Position numbers and translations under genes: made by a program
Notes under the pieces: model-generated
The model's database searches: none
What the model saw: the letters and a program-made list of their open reading frames with translations, nothing else
Told to the model about the DNA's origin: nothing
Origin: Saprospiraceae bacterium
GTDB taxonomy: Bacteria > Bacteroidota > Bacteroidia > Chitinophagales > Saprospiraceae
DNA length: 64,000 bases
Assembly (NCBI GenBank): GCA_020628645.1
Contig: JAHDES010000003.1
Location: 186,001-250,000 of the forward strand
Direction: 5' to 3'
Part shown: positions 3,309 through 11,459 of the stretch, piece after piece
Layout of the letters: each line of letters begins with the position of its first letter
Position numbering within the stretch: position 1 is the stretch's first letter

Positions 3309-3404
3309 ATAATTAAATAATACAATTACAATTACGCTGAGAAAATAATTTTTAACAAAAATACGTATTAAAACCAATTATTGTATTCTACTAAAACTAT
3401 TGAT

Positions 3405-5351
3405 ATGAAGCGATTCTACCCATTTGTTATAGCATTTCAATTTCTTTTTCTTACTCATATATCTGGTCAAACTCCACCCAAAGAATGGTCACAACTAAGT
3501 CCTCAAGATTTAAAAATGACACAGTATGATAAAGATACTTCTGCCAATGCAGTCATTTTGGTTGATTATGGCGTGATACGTGTACAAGATGGAGGAAGCC
3601 GATATGAATCCATATTGGAACGTCATAAACGAATTAAAATATTAGATAAATCTGCCTTTGAATATGGCGATGTAGAAATTCCTTTTTATGCAAAATCAGA
3701 AAGAATCAATCAACTAAAAATTCGTAGTATTGCTCCAAATGGGAAAGTGACAGAAGTCTCAAAAAATAATGTCTTTGAAGGAGACTATAACGAACATTGG
3801 AAAAATTTACGCTTTTCTTTCCCAAATCTTGAAGTAGGGTCTATTTTAGAATATTCTTATACACTTACCTCAGATTATATTATACAACTACAAGATTGGT
3901 ATTTTCAAAGTGAACTACCCATTTTGCATAGTGAAATTCAATTAGATGTTCCACCTGCATTTGAATATGTCTACTTGTTTAATGGTTCAAGCGAAATTCA
4001 AGCACAAATCCAAGAACAAAATACTGCAAGCAAAAATAATCGAACTGGCATTTATACCTATTTTGTAAAAGATGCACCTGCGATTGTAGAGGAAAGTTTC
4101 ATTACTACCATGGAAGATTATAAGGCGCGTTTTCGGTTTCAATTAAGTCGAACGATGTTACCGGGAGATTTTGAACGCCCCTATTTATCAGATTGGGATC
4201 ATGTATCTAGAGAACTATTAGATATGGATCGTTTTGGTAAAATTTATACGAATCAGAAAGGCTCTAAAAAAACGTGGGCGAAGATTGAGTCGATTATCAA
4301 TGGTTTAAAAAGTGAAAAAGAAAAAGCAAAATTTCTTTATGATTATGTTTGTTCTCAACTAAGTTGGGATGGTTATAATGGAATGCTGTCTGCCCGTAAA
4401 GTAGATGAATTGATGGAAGATGGAAAAGCAGATTCTGGTGAATTTAATCTTGCTTTGATTGCACTTTTACGAAGAGCAGGTATTGCAGCATCACCCGTGC
4501 TTATCAGCACTCGTTCTCATGGCGTGACGCAAGTGCAGTATCCCATTGTCGATCAGTTTAATCATGTCATTGTAGAAGCAACTATTGATGGTGTGACGAC
4601 CCTTTTAGATGCAGGAAGTTCTTTTCGACCGATGGGTTTATTAAGGGTTGAATCATTAAATGAAAGAGGCTGGACGATTGTAGACAAAAATGAGCATCAC
4701 TGGGTGAAAATTCAACCTTCAAAAGCAGCAGAAGTGTATTTCGCTACCCTTGAATTAACGGAAGAAGGAGACCTTTCAGGTCAACTAAAAATCCAATACA
4801 AAGGCTATGATGCCGTAAGTGCCCGCCGAAAATATGCAGAAAAAAAAGAAGCGTATTGGGAAGAATGGTTAACAGCACGTTACCCTGATGCAGAAGTAGA
4901 AGAAATTGAAAGTAAAAATGTAGATGCCCTTGAAAAACCCTTTCAAATACAAATGAAGGTCAAGTTGAATAATAGTAAATTGGTTGGCGACTTTATTTAT
5001 CTCAATCCAATTATTTATTCATTTTATGAAAAAAACCCTTTTAAACTCGAAAAAAGAAATTATCCAGTTGATATTCCTTATCCTATCAAGGAACAACTAA
5101 TTGTAAACTTAATTGTCCCAGATGGCTATACGGTAGATGCCCTTCCTGATCCTATTAATGTTGTTTTTGAAAATGGAAAAGGAAAATTTCGTTATTTAGC
5201 AAAAGTAGAAGGACAACAAGTACAAATTACGTCTCTTATTGACTTGCAACAGATTCAATTTTTACCTTCAGAATACCCAATAGTTAAAGGATTATTTGAT
5301 CGAGTAGCAGAAGCTTATGGAGAGCAAATTGTTTTGAAAAAAGTAGAATGA
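3405..5351 (+). CDS. Exported DUF3857 / transglutaminase-like protein
   Basis: A 648-residue exported protein. The start is set at ATG 3405 rather than the upstream TTG at 3381 because it yields a clean signal peptide (MKRFYPFVIAFQFLFLTHIS, then GQ). Residues ~50-240 match the DUF3857 beta-rich domain, ~290-410 a transglutaminase-like fold, and the remainder a DUF3858-type C-terminus. The expected catalytic Cys is replaced by Ser344 (in KADSGEFNLALIALL), while His387 (FNHVI) and Asp402 (LLDAGSS) remain, so it is probably not an active transglutaminase. A binding or structural role at the cell envelope is inferred. It is followed at 107 bases by the caspase-like gene on the same strand. Confidence 0.85.
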   Translation: MKRFYPFVIAFQFLFLTHISGQTPPKEWSQLSPQDLKMTQYDKDTSANAVILVDYGVIRVQDGGSRYESILERHKRIKILDKSAFEYGDVEIPFYAKSERINQLKIRSIAPNGKVTEVSKNNVFEGDYNEHWKNLRFSFPNLEVGSILEYSYTLTSDYIIQLQDWYFQSELPILHSEIQLDVPPAFEYVYLFNGSSEIQAQIQEQNTASKNNRTGIYTYFVKDAPAIVEESFITTMEDYKARFRFQLSRTMLPGDFERPYLSDWDHVSRELLDMDRFGKIYTNQKGSKKTWAKIESIINGLKSEKEKAKFLYDYVCSQLSWDGYNGMLSARKVDELMEDGKADSGEFNLALIALLRRAGIAASPVLISTRSHGVTQVQYPIVDQFNHVIVEATIDGVTTLLDAGSSFRPMGLLRVESLNERGWTIVDKNEHHWVKIQPSKAAEVYFATLELTEEGDLSGQLKIQYKGYDAVSARRKYAEKKEAYWEEWLTARYPDAEVEEIESKNVDALEKPFQIQMKVKLNNSKLVGDFIYLNPIIYSFYEKNPFKLEKRNYPVDIPYPIKEQLIVNLIVPDGYTVDALPDPINVVFENGKGKFRYLAKVEGQQVQITSLIDLQQIQFLPSEYPIVKGLFDRVAEAYGEQIVLKKVE

Positions 5352-5458: not shown

Positions 5459-7207
5459 ATGAAGAAACCTATTCTTATCTTTTTTGGGCTGTTATTCACT
5501 TCCATTTCTCTTTTCAGTCAATGTGTATCAGGCGATTGCCTCGATGGTAAAGGTATTTACACCTTCCCCAGTGGTGCAAAATATGTCGGTGAATTTCAAA
5601 ATGGAGAAGTTCATGGTCAAGGAATTTGTTACTATACCGATAATAGTAAATACGATGGACAATGGGCAAATCGTCGCCCCGAAGGCTATGGTATATTTAC
5701 AATGGCGAATGGAACATCCCGATCTGGTTTTTGGCAAAAAGGATTGCCTGTAAATGAAACTTCCCTACAAATAGACGAAGTTTTTGTCAAAAAGGGAGGC
5801 GTTTTTTTTGATGGAACAGACATCCAATCGGGCTGTATTATTGGAAATTGCCAAGATGGAAGAGGAACTTTTGCCTATGTAGATGGCAGTAAATATGAAG
5901 GTACATTCGTTAATGGCAAACTAGACGGACATGGCAAGTGGCATTATCCCAATGGTGATGTTTATATTGGAATGTTTAAAAATAACTTTGTACATGGAGT
6001 AGGTACTTTATATGAGAAAAAAGGAACTGTTCTTTCTGGAAATTGGGAACAAGGCGAATATATCGGAGAACGTTTTAGTAGTAAAGGGCAAGAAGGCTGT
6101 GTAACAGGTGATTGTTTCAATGGTCGAGGCACGTATATTTATAAAGATGGTTTTGCAAAATATGTCGGAAATTTTATAAATGGTCGCCCACATGGTGATG
6201 GCATTTGCTATTTTTCTAACGGAGAACGCTATACAGGCGAGTGGGCTGTAGGTAGTTTCAATGGTATAGGCACCTTATTTATGCAAGATGGAGGTGAAGT
6301 AACAGGCATCTGGCGAAATGGAGCCTTTGAAGCATACATGCCAACAGAAAATAAACAGCAATATACCTATCAATCTTCCACTTCCCCCGAAGAAGAACAA
6401 AATACGTCCCCACAAGAAGAAATAATAGAAACTACAGAAGAATCTTATTCAGCAGAAAATGAAGATAATCCAACTTCTTCTACAGATTTAAAAGTATGGG
6501 CTATCATTGTAGGGGTAGCAAGTTACGAACACATGCCTGTTTTGCGCTATACAGATGACGATGCTTATCGGATGTATGCTTTTTTGAAAAGCCCAGAAGG
6601 AGGAGCATTAGCAGACGAACAAATTCGTATTTTGATAGATGAAAATGCGACTAAAGAAAATATTTTGTCTATAATGAACGAGACCTTTATGCAAGCAGGA
6701 GCAAATGATTTAGTTTTATTGTATTTTTCGGGGCATGGCTTAAAAGGCTCTTTTTTGCCTATTGACTTTGATGGATTTAATAACAAAATCTTCCACGAAG
6801 AAATTACCGATATTTTTCAACGAAGTCCAGCAAAATATAAACTTTGTATAGCAGATGCATGTCATTCAGGGAGTTTATTGGCAAACAGAGGAGCCAATGT
6901 ACAAAATACATTGTTAAGTTATTATGAAAATTTGGCAAAAGCACAAGCAGGTACAGCACTTTTGATGTCTTCTAAATCTGAAGAAAATTCACTTGAATCT
7001 AGTGGATTACGCCAAGGTGTTTTTAGCCATTTTTTGATTCGTGGACTAAAAGGAGAAGCCGACCAAAATGGAAATAATATTGTTACAATTCAAGAATTAT
7101 TTAATTATATTGAATTAAATGTAAGAGAGTATACGGTGAGAAGTCAATCACCCGTTATACGGGGAGATTACGATAAAAATATGACCGTTGCCGTTAAACG
7201 AGATTAA
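5459..7207 (+). CDS. Exported MORN-repeat protein with C-terminal caspase-like (C14) domain
   Basis: A 582-residue exported protein. ATG 5459 is preferred over the upstream in-frame TTG at 5390 because it begins a signal peptide (MKKPILIFFGLLFTSISLFS). Residues ~25-290 hold about nine to ten MORN-type repeats (pattern YVGEFQNGEVHGQGI) in three clusters, each introduced by a CxxGxC-type segment such as CVSGDCLDGKG. An acidic Glu/Ser/Thr linker follows. Residues ~345-580 are a caspase/metacaspase domain with the catalytic pair His426 (YFSGHG) and Cys468 (ADACHSG) both present. MORN repeats often bind lipids or other proteins. The substrate is unknown. Export to the periplasm or surface is inferred from the signal peptide and is unusual for a death-type protease. 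Confidence 0.9.
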   Translation: MKKPILIFFGLLFTSISLFSQCVSGDCLDGKGIYTFPSGAKYVGEFQNGEVHGQGICYYTDNSKYDGQWANRRPEGYGIFTMANGTSRSGFWQKGLPVNETSLQIDEVFVKKGGVFFDGTDIQSGCIIGNCQDGRGTFAYVDGSKYEGTFVNGKLDGHGKWHYPNGDVYIGMFKNNFVHGVGTLYEKKGTVLSGNWEQGEYIGERFSSKGQEGCVTGDCFNGRGTYIYKDGFAKYVGNFINGRPHGDGICYFSNGERYTGEWAVGSFNGIGTLFMQDGGEVTGIWRNGAFEAYMPTENKQQYTYQSSTSPEEEQNTSPQEEIIETTEESYSAENEDNPTSSTDLKVWAIIVGVASYEHMPVLRYTDDDAYRMYAFLKSPEGGALADEQIRILIDENATKENILSIMNETFMQAGANDLVLLYFSGHGLKGSFLPIDFDGFNNKIFHEEITDIFQRSPAKYKLCIADACHSGSLLANRGANVQNTLLSYYENLAKAQAGTALLMSSKSEENSLESSGLRQGVFSHFLIRGLKGEADQNGNNIVTIQELFNYIELNVREYTVRSQSPVIRGDYDKNMTVAVKRD

Positions 7208-7260
7208 TTTTCTAAACTATGGCATAGTATTCGTGGCGTTAAACCTTACTTCCCTATTTG

Positions 7261-8415
7261 ATGCTATCAAATAAAATGTACAAAAGAAAAAATCAAAAAC
7301 TTATGTATCTAGCTCAACCGACCATTGATAAAGTCGTGAAAACAGTCCAAGAACTTGCACCTCAAGAAAATGAAACCATTCTATTACTCTTCGCTGAACA
7401 AGATTCTAACGATTTCGATGCATTAGTAAAAGCACTCAATAAAATTAATATCTCTTTTATGGGAGGATTATTTCCAGGGATTATCTATGGAAATAAACAC
7501 TACAAAGAAGGTTGTGTTATCAAAAAATTACCTGCCATTATTAAACCCGATATTATAGATTTGAAAGATGGGAAAGTTCGGATTCCTAATCTTATGAAGC
7601 AAATTGAAGCCCATGATACAAAACTGACTGTACTCACGCTCGTAGATGGATTAACAGCTTCCATAAGCCCTTATCTCAAGTCTTTATTCAATGTGTATGG
7701 CAATTCTGTTTCTTTTATAGGAGGAGGAGCAGGATCACTTTCTCTCGTTCAACAAGAGTGTGTATTTACCAATAAAGGTGTTTTTCAAGATGCAGCAATA
7801 TTTTGTCTTCTTGATTTAAGTATAAGTTTGGGCGTGCGTCATGGATGGCAACACCTTCATGGCCCGATAGTAGCCACTAAAACAAATGGCAATACGATAG
7901 AACAATTAAATTGGCAAAATGCATTCGAGGTATATAAATCAGTAGTGGAAGCAGATGCAGGAGTACAATTTAATGAAGAAAATTTCTTTGACATTGCAAA
8001 AGGCTATCCATTTGGTATCTCCAAACAAGATAATGAAGACATCATACGCGACCCTATTGCCGTAAGCAAAGAAGGACACTTACTTTGTGTAGGAGAAGTA
8101 CCCGAAAATACCGTACTTCATATTATGAAAGGAGAAAGTCAATCTTTAATTGAATCAGCAAAATTAGCTGTAAATGATTGTAAAGATCAGCTAACGAAAA
8201 ATATCCAACATACATTTGTGGTAGATTGTATTTCCAGGATTTTATTTCTAGAAGAAGAATTTGATAATGAACTAAATGCCATCACAGATACCCTAGGAGA
8301 AACATCACAAGAAGCACAACCAATGGGAGTGCTTAGTTTGGGGGAAATTTCTTCTTATGGAAATGGATTTATCGAGTTTTATAATAAAACATTGGTTATA
8401 GGTGCGATGCATTAG
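7261..8415 (+). CDS. FIST domain sensor protein
   Basis: A 384-residue soluble protein matching FIST_N (residues ~40-220, with FMGGLFPGIIYG and SFIGGGAGSLS) followed by FIST_C (~220-370, DPIAVSKEGHLLCVGEVPEN, then VVDCISRILFL). FIST domains are signal-input modules thought to bind small ligands such as amino acids. The ATG at 7261 is taken as start; 7276 and 7303 are in-frame alternatives and the N-terminus is uncertain. The gene sits 143 bases upstream of a large hybrid histidine kinase on the same strand. Because FIST proteins often feed histidine kinases, the two probably form one signalling pair. Confidence 0.88.
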   Translation: MLSNKMYKRKNQKLMYLAQPTIDKVVKTVQELAPQENETILLLFAEQDSNDFDALVKALNKINISFMGGLFPGIIYGNKHYKEGCVIKKLPAIIKPDIIDLKDGKVRIPNLMKQIEAHDTKLTVLTLVDGLTASISPYLKSLFNVYGNSVSFIGGGAGSLSLVQQECVFTNKGVFQDAAIFCLLDLSISLGVRHGWQHLHGPIVATKTNGNTIEQLNWQNAFEVYKSVVEADAGVQFNEENFFDIAKGYPFGISKQDNEDIIRDPIAVSKEGHLLCVGEVPENTVLHIMKGESQSLIESAKLAVNDCKDQLTKNIQHTFVVDCISRILFLEEEFDNELNAITDTLGETSQEAQPMGVLSLGEISSYGNGFIEFYNKTLVIGAMH

Positions 8416-8558
8416 TCGTCTTTTTATACTAGATTTAGTTCTTCTAGGATAAAAAAATGAACTGAAATGTGTACATTGAGAAGCTTTACAAATTTTTCTA
8501 ATAAAATAGCCACCTCTTTCACAGAAACTACTTCCAAGCACGAAGTCAAAACACAATA

Positions 8559-11459
8559 ATGAGAGAGAACATAAATATCATACAAGATATTTCTTTACTT
8601 TATGAATTATCACTTGCAGTAGGTAAATCACTCGATGTTACCGAAAATTGTGATAACTTTCTCAAAGTCTTAATGGCTCGCAAAGGACTTTCTTTCGCTT
8701 CTGTTTGGCTCCGTGAAAATGAATACATTAAATCAGATACCGATAATACCGTCTTAGTGTATGCTGCCCCACAATTCAAAGTTCAAGACAAAATTATTGA
8801 AAATGATCACTTCATTTATCAACAATTAAAAAAACAAAAACGTCCTTATTGGTTAGTTCCAGCAAAGAATAAACATTTCAACTCTATTATTCAGGAAAAA
8901 GATATTGAAGGAGGATGCTTTGCTATTTACCCCTTAGAAGATATTGGTTATTTGAAATTGTATAGTATTAATGAAAATACACTTTCTACCATTGGCTTGG
9001 AACAACTCGTCAATGTTATCCAAAAATTTGCACTCATCTTAAAAGGGTCATTAGTTTATTTGCGGTTGAAAAATGAAACTTATGATCGTATACGAGCTCA
9101 AAAAGCACTACAAGCTAGTGAAGAACGATATAGTGGGGTAGTTAATAGTCTAGCAGAGGGTATTATCATAACTGATTTAGAAGGGCGTGTAACTTACGTA
9201 AACCCTCAAATGTGTAAATTAACAGGCTATTCAAGTGAACAATTGTTAGGAGAAAAAGCGTATAAACTCTTATTAAGACCTGAAAAACAAAAAGATTTTG
9301 AAGCTAATTTTGAGAAACGAAAAAAAGGAATTTCAGAAAATTACGAAATAGAACACGTTCGTCCTAATAAAGAAATTTGGATTGCTAGTATTAATGCTAT
9401 TCCTTTTAAAGATGCACAAGGAAATATTATAGGTGCAATGGGCGCTGTGATGGATATTACTGTTCGTAAAAAAGCAGAACAACGAATACAAGAGAGTGAG
9501 TATAAATTCCGAAAAATCGTTGATACCTCCCTTGATGCTGTAGTCACGGTGAATAAAAAAAGTAAAATTACAGAATGGAATGAACAAGCTGAAATAACAT
9601 TTGGCTACACTCGCGAAGAAGCACTAGGTCAAACGATGATGGATCTCATTATGCCACCTCGTTTTCGAGATGCACATAATAAAGGAATGACTAATTATTT
9701 TAAAACAGGGCATGGCCCCGTTTTGAATAATCGAATTGAAATATTTGCCATTGATCGAAATAATCGAGAGTTTCCAATAGAGCTCAGTATCAATGAAATT
9801 ATCTTGCATGGAGAACATTTTTTTAGTGCATTCATCCGAGATATTACAGAACGAAAACAAGCAGAAGAAAAAATATTAGCCGCGCAAAAAGCAGCAGAGA
9901 AAGCTCGATTAGCAGAGCAGCAGTTTCTTGCCAATATGAGTCATGAAATCAGAACACCAATCAATGCAGTAGTTGGAATGACGCATCTGCTGTATTCTAC
10001 TCCTCTAAATGATACACAAAAAGAATATATTGATGCCCTTCGTTATTCATCTGAAAGTCTTATGGGAATTGTCAATAATATTTTAGATATTTCTAAAATT
10101 GAAGCAGGTAAATTGGAGTTTGAACAAAAAGAATTTAGCCTAGAGTCTTTATTAAAAGGACTAAATCAAACGTTCCAGTTTAGAATGATTGATAAGGATT
10201 TAACCTTAGATATATCATTTGATAAACGAATTGAAAATTATCTTGTTGGTGACCCTACTCGATTGAAACAAGTATTGTTCAATTTATTAGGTAATGCATT
10301 CAAATTTACTAGCGAAGGAAGCATTGGAATACATACGATGCTCCTAGCTCAAACATCAGATACCTTTACTATTCAGTTTGATGTATTTGATACAGGGATC
10401 GGTATTGCATCAGATAAATTGGATACTATTTTTGAAAGTTTTAAACAAGCAGATGTCAGTGTTACCCGAAAATATGGCGGTACAGGGTTGGGTTTGGCCA
10501 TTGTTAAACAATTGGTCGAACGTCAAGGTGGTTCAATACATGTTCGTAGCCAAGTAGGGCGAGGATCTAATTTTATGGTAACGCTTCCTTTTGGAAATTC
10601 AGGAATGCCTATTGATGAAGATCGAGAACAAGGAAATTATAACCGAGAATTTAGAGATAGTGAACGCATCAAGAAAATTAAATTTTTGATAGTCGAAGAT
10701 AATGAGATGAATCAAAAATTAGTGCAGAAAATCCTGAGTAATTGGGGCTGTCAATATGATTTAGCAGAAAATGGAAAAATAGCAGTGCAAAAAAGCCTTG
10801 AAACAACGTATGACATCATCTTGATGGATGTACACATGCCTGAAATGGATGGTTTTACAGCGACTAGCACGATTAGAAATAATCCAAATAATCCAAATAA
10901 AGATGCACACATCATTGCTTTAACGGCAGCAGCTTTTGTCGAAGAAAAAAATAAGGCGAAGGAAGTAGGTATGAACAATTTCTTGACCAAACCTTTCTCG
11001 CCAGTTGATTTAGCTTCCATCATTCAAAAAGTAGATGTATCTCAAAAGGATAACTCAATTCCAGAAGTAGCAACTGAAGAAGCTCAATTAGCTGAAAATC
11101 CAATACCGCAAGTAGATTTGAGTAAATTGGAAAAATTAGTGAAGAATGATCCTTCTTTTATGGAAGATATGATCTCTATTTTCTTAAAAGATATACCTGT
11201 TACCTTAAAGGAAATGGATACAGCTTTACAAAATGAAGAATGGCAAACGGTCTGTGATTTGGCACATAAAATTAAATCTAATTTCATGCTAATGGGAATG
11301 ACCGAATTACATGAGACCGCTTTTCGTATTGAAAGTATGATTCGTTCTAAATCTATCCATCCAGAAAGTGTACAATCAGATGTCCAATATTTGATGGAGT
11401 CTACTAATGCTGTTATGCCCGTCTTAAAAGCAGAACTGAAAAAAACCTATACCGATTAA
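8559..11459 (+). CDS. Hybrid sensor histidine kinase (GAF-like, PAS-PAS, HisKA, HATPase, REC, HPt)
   Basis: A 966-residue cytoplasmic phosphorelay protein with no clear membrane segments. Order: GAF-like region (~10-165), PAS 1 (~190-310), PAS 2 (~315-435), coiled coil, HisKA with His462 (NMSHEIRTP), HATPase with DTGIGI and GGTGLGLAI, receiver with phospho-acceptor Asp757 (ILMDVHMPEMDG), and HPt with His903 (LAHKIKSN). All relay residues are intact, so phosphate can move His462 to Asp757 to His903. No cognate output regulator lies next to it. The upstream FIST gene is the likely sensory partner. It converges on gyrB with an 11-base gap. Confidence 0.93.
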   Translation: MRENINIIQDISLLYELSLAVGKSLDVTENCDNFLKVLMARKGLSFASVWLRENEYIKSDTDNTVLVYAAPQFKVQDKIIENDHFIYQQLKKQKRPYWLVPAKNKHFNSIIQEKDIEGGCFAIYPLEDIGYLKLYSINENTLSTIGLEQLVNVIQKFALILKGSLVYLRLKNETYDRIRAQKALQASEERYSGVVNSLAEGIIITDLEGRVTYVNPQMCKLTGYSSEQLLGEKAYKLLLRPEKQKDFEANFEKRKKGISENYEIEHVRPNKEIWIASINAIPFKDAQGNIIGAMGAVMDITVRKKAEQRIQESEYKFRKIVDTSLDAVVTVNKKSKITEWNEQAEITFGYTREEALGQTMMDLIMPPRFRDAHNKGMTNYFKTGHGPVLNNRIEIFAIDRNNREFPIELSINEIILHGEHFFSAFIRDITERKQAEEKILAAQKAAEKARLAEQQFLANMSHEIRTPINAVVGMTHLLYSTPLNDTQKEYIDALRYSSESLMGIVNNILDISKIEAGKLEFEQKEFSLESLLKGLNQTFQFRMIDKDLTLDISFDKRIENYLVGDPTRLKQVLFNLLGNAFKFTSEGSIGIHTMLLAQTSDTFTIQFDVFDTGIGIASDKLDTIFESFKQADVSVTRKYGGTGLGLAIVKQLVERQGGSIHVRSQVGRGSNFMVTLPFGNSGMPIDEDREQGNYNREFRDSERIKKIKFLIVEDNEMNQKLVQKILSNWGCQYDLAENGKIAVQKSLETTYDIILMDVHMPEMDGFTATSTIRNNPNNPNKDAHIIALTAAAFVEEKNKAKEVGMNNFLTKPFSPVDLASIIQKVDVSQKDNSIPEVATEEAQLAENPIPQVDLSKLEKLVKNDPSFMEDMISIFLKDIPVTLKEMDTALQNEEWQTVCDLAHKIKSNFMLMGMTELHETAFRIESMIRSKSIHPESVQSDVQYLMESTNAVMPVLKAELKKTYTD

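Follow-up and report, generated by a model that had tools for sequence, protein, structure and literature searches.

Bacterial relatives of caspases are mostly discussed as intracellular proteases of immunity or cell death. MALT1, an Arg-specific protease with the caspase fold, is intracellular in animals, whereas the protein described here carries a leader. In the relevant part of PMC5756287, MALT1 is described as activated by dimerisation and as having Ig and death domains where our protein has MORN repeats, and metacaspases are described as mostly Ca2+-dependent via sites in p20 and p10. MORN repeats are presented in a section of PMC7725318 as interaction and dimerisation modules, with MORN proteins forming antiparallel dimers. 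The order MORN then metacaspase was tabulated in 2016 for six Baltic Sea sequences with 1 to 4 MORN hits (PMC4933709, Table 1); these resemble our protein by domain order only, as the pertinent passages of that article give no leader, organism or conservation for them. In 46 sequences of a 2012 survey, the C14 domain follows a single N-terminal helix that may be a signal peptide, although the main text has no occurrence of MORN (PMC3501461, in part), and the YARHG-caspase A5ECX2 of Bradyrhizobium is, in the portion of PMC3355149 concerned, a C14 protein with a signal peptide. MORN|metacaspase proteins are absent from the corresponding passage of PMC4632311, MORN does not occur in the available portion of PMC8195603, and the part of PMC7935541 that bears on the subject gives no processing site. 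Both the MORN-caspase order and C14 proteins with a signal peptide are therefore known; among the matches listed from the open-licence PMC literature, we found no paper on the export or conservation of this family.

The window analysed here is a stretch of 64,000 nucleotides from a Saprospiraceae bacterium (assembly GCA_020628645.1, contig JAHDES010000003.1), whose genome comprises 6.18 Mb in 98 contigs. Translation of the window at 5459-7207 (+) yields a 582-aa protein, hereafter MORN-caspase, encoded by one open frame (frame 1) with an ATG start. A Sec-type leader is followed by three MORN clusters, which a disordered linker separates from a caspase-fold (peptidase C14) domain that is complete; the features are as follows.

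5459..7207 (+): whole MORN-caspase gene, 582 aa (translation, Pfam).
5459..5521 (+): Sec-type leader, residues 1-21, ending ...LFSQ before C22 (presumed cleavage point).
5522..5752 (+): MORN cluster 1, residues 22-98, opening with C22-x4-C27 (Pfam, alignment, fold model).
5834..6067 (+): MORN cluster 2, residues 126-203, opening with C126-x4-C131 (alignment, fold model).
6098..6337 (+): MORN cluster 3, residues 214-293, opening with C214-x4-C219 (alignment, fold model).
6368..6481 (+): disordered acidic linker, residues 304-341 (pLDDT <50).
6485..7198 (+): caspase-fold (peptidase C14) domain, residues 343-580 (Pfam, fold comparison).
6560..6562 (+): Asp368, aligned with an S1-pocket acid of metacaspases (74/74; phmmer against 6w8s and 4f6o).
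6734..6736 (+): catalytic His426 (74/74 aligned sequences).
6854..6856 (+): Asp466, aligned with the Asp of the metacaspase D-S-C-H-S-G motif (74/74; phmmer).
6860..6862 (+): catalytic Cys468 (74/74 aligned sequences).
6866..6946 (+): disordered loop 470-496 past the catalytic Cys, candidate self-cleavage site (pLDDT <50).
6887-6889 (+): basic residue 477 within loop 470-496 (alignment of 74).
7061..7096 (+): EF-hand-like loop, residues 535-546, D-x-N-x-N-x-I-V-T-I-Q-E (pattern in 74/74).

Both domain types are recognized well above threshold by Pfam: MORN with an E value of 4e-22 (77.1 bits against a cut-off of 22.5) and Peptidase_C14 over residues 347-569 with an E value of 1.6e-20 (74.3 bits against 21.4). 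Each of the three MORN clusters begins with CxxGxC, at C22, C126 and C214. The signal peptide, three MORN clusters, His426, Cys468 and coordinates given in the initial annotation are thus borne out by translation, Pfam and alignment.

To assess conservation we used an alignment (A2) of the window protein with 73 of the 97 listed MORN-caspase references, the remaining 24 having been left out; its rows are kin, and its 74-row counts are of non-independent events. The leader-MORN-caspase order, which the initial annotation had suggested looking for in other genomes, recurs in these relatives. Moreover, the loss of the dyad in close homologues that had been named in advance as evidence against the proposal did not occur: His426 and Cys468 are invariant in 23/23 rows of a smaller alignment and in 74/74 rows of A2, the window protein being counted in both. 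Asp368 and Asp466 are equally invariant in A2 (74/74). A hydrophobic leader, scored by a home-made hydropathy rule, directly precedes the first CxxGxC in all 74 proteins, and the residue just before this motif is Gln in 66 of them. Four MORN clusters are present in 9 of the 74 proteins.

The Cys pairs that open the clusters are retained or lost as pairs. Both members of C22/C27 (cluster 1) are present in 74/74 rows, those of C214/C219 (cluster 3) are both present in 72 and both missing in 2, and those of C126/C131 (cluster 2) are both present in 59 and both missing in 15. C57 splits 59:15 in the same manner as C126/C131, a shared division consistent with a single ancient duplication that gave groups A and B, so that the cluster 2 split reflects one event and not many. 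Cys57, Cys250 and Cys463 have no obvious partner Cys.

The tree of C14 domains (101 rows) agrees with this division, in that a single clade of 22 (support 99/97) takes in all 15 rows of A2 that belong to group B and the window protein sits in group A beside locus L036 (support 96/90); bootstrap values in this tree are unsettled, long branches meet, and one locus (L160) was left out because no domain was caught. A second copy in the host genome, on contig C97, falls in the group B clade of 22. This paralogue (L133:7782-9458) is 559 aa long, has the leader and the dyad, and lies among neighbours that differ from those of the window gene. Elsewhere in the same genome, contig C9 encodes a 325-aa MORN protein (L134:4936-5910) without a C14 match, which has a leader and a Cys pair ahead of the first repeat. 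All three MORN-bearing genes found in the host genome start with a leader.

A structure predicted by AlphaFold2 from A2 has a mean pLDDT of 80.5 and a pTM of 0.50, the latter meaning that the relative placement of the domains is not given by the model. Values of pLDDT below 50 occur in most of residues 109-115, the linker 304-341 and the loop 470-496. By VIA-align, the top-ranked solved fold for the caspase model (343-580) is MALT1, with a Z of 24.5 over 213 residues (2.6 A, 19% identity), and Arabidopsis metacaspase 4, whose fold gives Z of 21-24, ties with it at 23.9; the model aligns with the MALT1 caspase unit and with caspases having p10. The MORN part matches protozoan MORN1 structures (6t6q, 6t4r; Foldseek E 6.9e-21) in fold and repeat sequence. 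Presumably, eukaryotic MORN1 has neither a leader nor a CxxGxC opening. It consists of MORN repeats only, according to the part of PMC7725318 that describes it.

The best PDB sequence matches of the caspase part are Arabidopsis metacaspase 4 (6w8s/6w8r) and yeast metacaspase 1 (4f6o), and phmmer aligns Asp368 and Asp466 with acids of these metacaspases that we take to be S1 acids by role. Because of this alignment, we infer that the predicted protease has Arg or Lys as its P1 residue. MORN-caspase differs from the metacaspases in having no counterpart of the acid-rich stretch that follows their catalytic His, and in an EF-hand-like loop near its C terminus. Taken as a whole, MORN-caspase is real and conserved, and is probably exported and active as a protease.

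The leader indicates that MORN-caspase probably leaves the cytoplasm, and two routes beyond simple export were considered. The lipoprotein reading is rejected, as a regular expression finds a lipobox before the first mature Cys in 0/74 proteins of A2. Type IX secretion is rejected as well: Pfam and NCBIfam scans of MORN-caspase find no C-terminal tail (Por_Secre_tail or NCBIfam equivalents), whereas the host genome has at least 150 Por_Secre_tail matches (150 of 348 candidates scored). Because it has neither a lipobox nor a type IX tail in a genome with so many such tails, the protein most likely resides in the periplasm or at the periplasmic face of the envelope. The initial annotation had contrasted this export with bacterial caspase-like proteases being usually cytoplasmic, a generalization that is too strong in view of the C14 proteins with signal peptides reported in parts of PMC3501461 and PMC3355149.

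The family is widespread. Homologues are detected at E <= 1e-60 in 147 of 199 genomes of the family, the other 52 having no match (own genome counted), and matches at 1e-10 occur in 37 of 60 relatives scanned; the count of 147/199 and the wider counts rest mainly on the caspase part and not on gene-by-gene inspection of MORN repeats or leader. Under equal settings, a leaderless C14 protein of the same genome (L003), used as a control, is found in 26/199 (own genome counted). Across a phylum sample of 296 genomes, 16 match at 1e-30, 6 of them from the same family; for the other 10, the matches listed cover the caspase part only. The 80 named loci (L036-L115) are the best 80 of 363 relatives, 56 of them being labelled Saprospiraceae and the others Saprospirales, Chitinophagales, Lewinella/Lewinellaceae, or only Bacteroidetes/Bacteroidota/Bacteroidia. 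Tandem MORN-caspase copies occur in 18 of the 80 loci (for example, L037 and L104), with 17 directly adjacent, a count by a tandem-pair script that caught none of the copies of locus L075. Because close relatives keep MORN-caspase with its active site intact, the protein has the look of a routine, if unstudied, enzyme of the envelope, and not of an oddity or a weapon.

The disordered loop past Cys468 contains a candidate self-activation site. Residue 477 is Arg in 40, Lys in 33 and Ser in 1 of the 74 proteins and is thus basic in 73/74, against 26/74 for the next most basic column within 472-500. Since the enzyme is itself expected to cleave behind Arg or Lys, the easiest interpretation of a basic residue in such a disordered loop is a self-cleavage site. 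However, three leaderless C14 proteins of the same genome also have Arg seven residues past the Cys, for which reason residue 477 may instead be structural or general to C14. Precedents in the pertinent part of PMC5756287 point both ways. On the one hand, orthocaspase MaOC1 needs a self-cut, and dimerisation activates caspases and paracaspases; on the other, self-processing between p20 and p10 never occurs in type I metacaspases, and the activation of orthocaspases and paracaspases is calcium-independent, statements that speak against the steps of loop cleavage and Ca2+ binding.

The EF-hand-like loop at 535-546 matches the pattern [DN]x[DNS]x[DNST]x6E in 74/74 proteins of A2. We surveyed 34 C14 rows, recovered by a dyad pattern from loci covering most of 55 matches, with many missed, including four in locus L165. 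The loop is present in 16 of 17 MORN rows, which are kin and not independent, and the 17th (L145) ends at the locus edge; a whole copy in L158 also has it. None of the 17 non-MORN C14 rows contains the loop, and 3 of these were flagged with a leader, of which that of L167 looks real and those of L168 and L173 look false, corresponding to the first caspase strand. As a mark of export the loop is therefore upheld only in part, since the leader-bearing L167 and a second MORN type (described below) are without it. The loop may also be a mere turn, or be kept by shared descent. Outside the MORN group, EF-like loops (some read by eye) occur in L129, L131 and L176. Two of these proteins, L129:1423-2214 and L176, are C14 proteins without MORN from other families of the class and order, and have both a leader and the loop. 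L131 and L132, from further families of the phylum, are C14 proteins that match the window protein in their C14 part; L131 combines WD40 repeats with the EF-like loop, and L132 was placed in the C14 tree.

The MORN repeats had been described initially as probably lipid- or surface-binding. Lipid binding is doubtful, given that TbMORN1 bound no membranes or vesicles, though interacting with single phospholipids, as reported in a section of PMC7725318.

We tentatively favour, as the best explanation of these features, a Sec-exported and likely periplasmic Arg/Lys-specific caspase-fold zymogen that is paired through its MORN repeats and serves the cell's own envelope. MORN-caspase would be exported via its Sec leader and retained in the periplasm or at the face of the envelope turned towards it, where the CxxGxC pairs would oxidise to disulfides capping each MORN sheet. 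The MORN arrays would then pair two molecules and bring their caspase domains together, as in MALT1 and caspases, after which the loop past Cys468 would be cut after Arg/Lys477 in the paired molecules. Binding of Ca2+ by the EF-hand-like loop would ensure that the enzyme is inactive in the cytoplasm and active once outside it, and the active protease would cut after Arg or Lys. Its job would be resident envelope work, for instance the controlled processing or removal of envelope proteins of the cell itself, and in this respect the suggestion of envelope remodelling in the initial annotation is possible. This sequence of export, oxidation, MORN pairing, cleavage of the loop and binding of Ca2+ is a proposal that draws on MORN dimers, the failure of TbMORN1 to bind membranes, basic residue 477 and precedents of caspase activation. 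From strongest to weakest, the steps run from periplasmic location through Arg/Lys at P1 and disulfides to MORN pairing and the loop cut, then Ca2+ and finally the envelope job.

The genomic neighbourhood gives this job no further definition, as no scanned neighbour points to an envelope process. Nine of ten neighbours have Pfam names (ProRS, MarR, DUF3857/transglutaminase, FIST, hybrid kinase, gyrase B, fatty-acid desaturase, DUF1990 and YndJ) and one has no Pfam hit. None of the window neighbours recurs in the 80 named loci, and they were set aside as operon partners for that reason; this is consistent with a solitary gene and not with a cassette for defence or toxins. On the same strand, the gene immediately upstream (window positions 3381-5351) encodes a DUF3857/transglutaminase-like/DUF3858 protein with a hydrophobic N terminus. 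Downstream, a FIST_N/FIST_C protein lies directly before a PAS-histidine kinase-receiver-Hpt hybrid (7258-11459), a candidate sensor pair whose FIST member weakly matches the nitric-oxide sensor NosP (35.4 bits against a cut-off of 450). Around the relatives, a DUF4920 protein of ~165 aa is found in 14 of the 80 loci, all 14 being among the 18 tandem-pair loci, an HD-domain protein in 11 (9 of which carry a tandem pair) and a TPR-cyclase protein in 4, each name resting on Pfam for one member; none of these three lies within the window.

A second kind of MORN-caspase bears on how such proteins arise. Loci L135, L136 and L151, from two relatives (G005 and G007), encode leader-MORN-C14 proteins of another C14 subfamily, with the motif AGHG ... 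LDACR[ND]NP[FY] in place of the SGHG ... ADACHSGS of the window family and without the EF-like loop. They group apart in the C14 tree (support 100/99), and the matches listed from a search with the window protein span their MORN part (query <=321) and not the caspase part. On the grounds of motif, missing loop, tree position and MORN-only match, MORN arrays and C14 domains have probably been joined more than once in Saprospiraceae. The tree part of this case is weak, because of long branches and unsettled bootstrap, and the separate place of the second type rests equally on its different motif and on the caspase part being missing among the matches listed.

The occurrence in one family of MORN repeats fused to two different types of C14 also suits another use of the same exported zymogen, namely a switch that responds to a breach of the envelope with regulated self-digestion or lysis, a periplasmic form of programmed cell death. 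The caspase fold, the loop resembling that of a zymogen and the repeat array, which might provide a platform, are likewise in keeping with it. However, the window gene has no recurring neighbour, the Pfam names of the scanned neighbours are not lytic, and wide presence suits upkeep as well as death, and we judge this alternative unlikely. Rather more speculative is a broader version, in which a Saprospiraceae caspase outside the cytoplasm has a disulfide-capped MORN platform that pairs and fires the zymogen on an envelope event, Ca2+ serves as the 'outside' signal, and distant C14 domains gave rise to the module on at least two occasions, so that it would recur as an answer to the needs of envelope surveillance or programmed lysis.

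The leader would also be expected of a protease that leaves the cell to digest neighbours or environmental protein, and one passage of PMC4933709 proposes that Bacteroidetes metacaspases may help to degrade phytoplankton polymers. The initial annotation had raised attack on other cells in the same spirit. Against such roles, MORN-caspase has no type IX tail in a genome that has so many, its homologues are widely and not patchily distributed, and no partner gene of the window locus recurs in the 80 loci; a secreted weapon or feeding enzyme thus seems quite improbable.

If the leader were a false reading, MORN-caspase would be a cytoplasmic immune or cell-death protease, as might be suggested by its matches to the PADLOC 'caspase' model (4.2e-17) and to the NCBIfam EACC1-associated caspase NF047832 (E 4.4e-26). 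The latter match, at 91.7 bits, is below the cut-off of 140, and the leader is present in 74/74 proteins. Furthermore, the genome has separate leaderless C14 proteins, and the ten neighbours give only two weak PADLOC hits (5.2e-06 and 0.00043, to a histidine kinase and a MarR-type protein). We consider a cytoplasmic role very unlikely. Least credible of all is a scaffold with an unused protease part, for although MORN arrays are interaction modules (PMC7725318, in the section cited above), the dyad and the S1-type acids are invariant in 74/74.

A resident envelope enzyme, the reading that we favour, would extend what is known of caspase-fold proteases in bacteria. With a candidate activation loop and an EF-hand-like loop of its own, and widely distributed in one family, a conserved exported lineage would demonstrate that resident work in a bacterial envelope is also among the tasks of the caspase fold. 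MORN-caspase is also a compact protein with which to ask what bacterial MORN repeats do, and it bears on whether orthocaspases need dimerisation, Ca2+ or loop cleavage.
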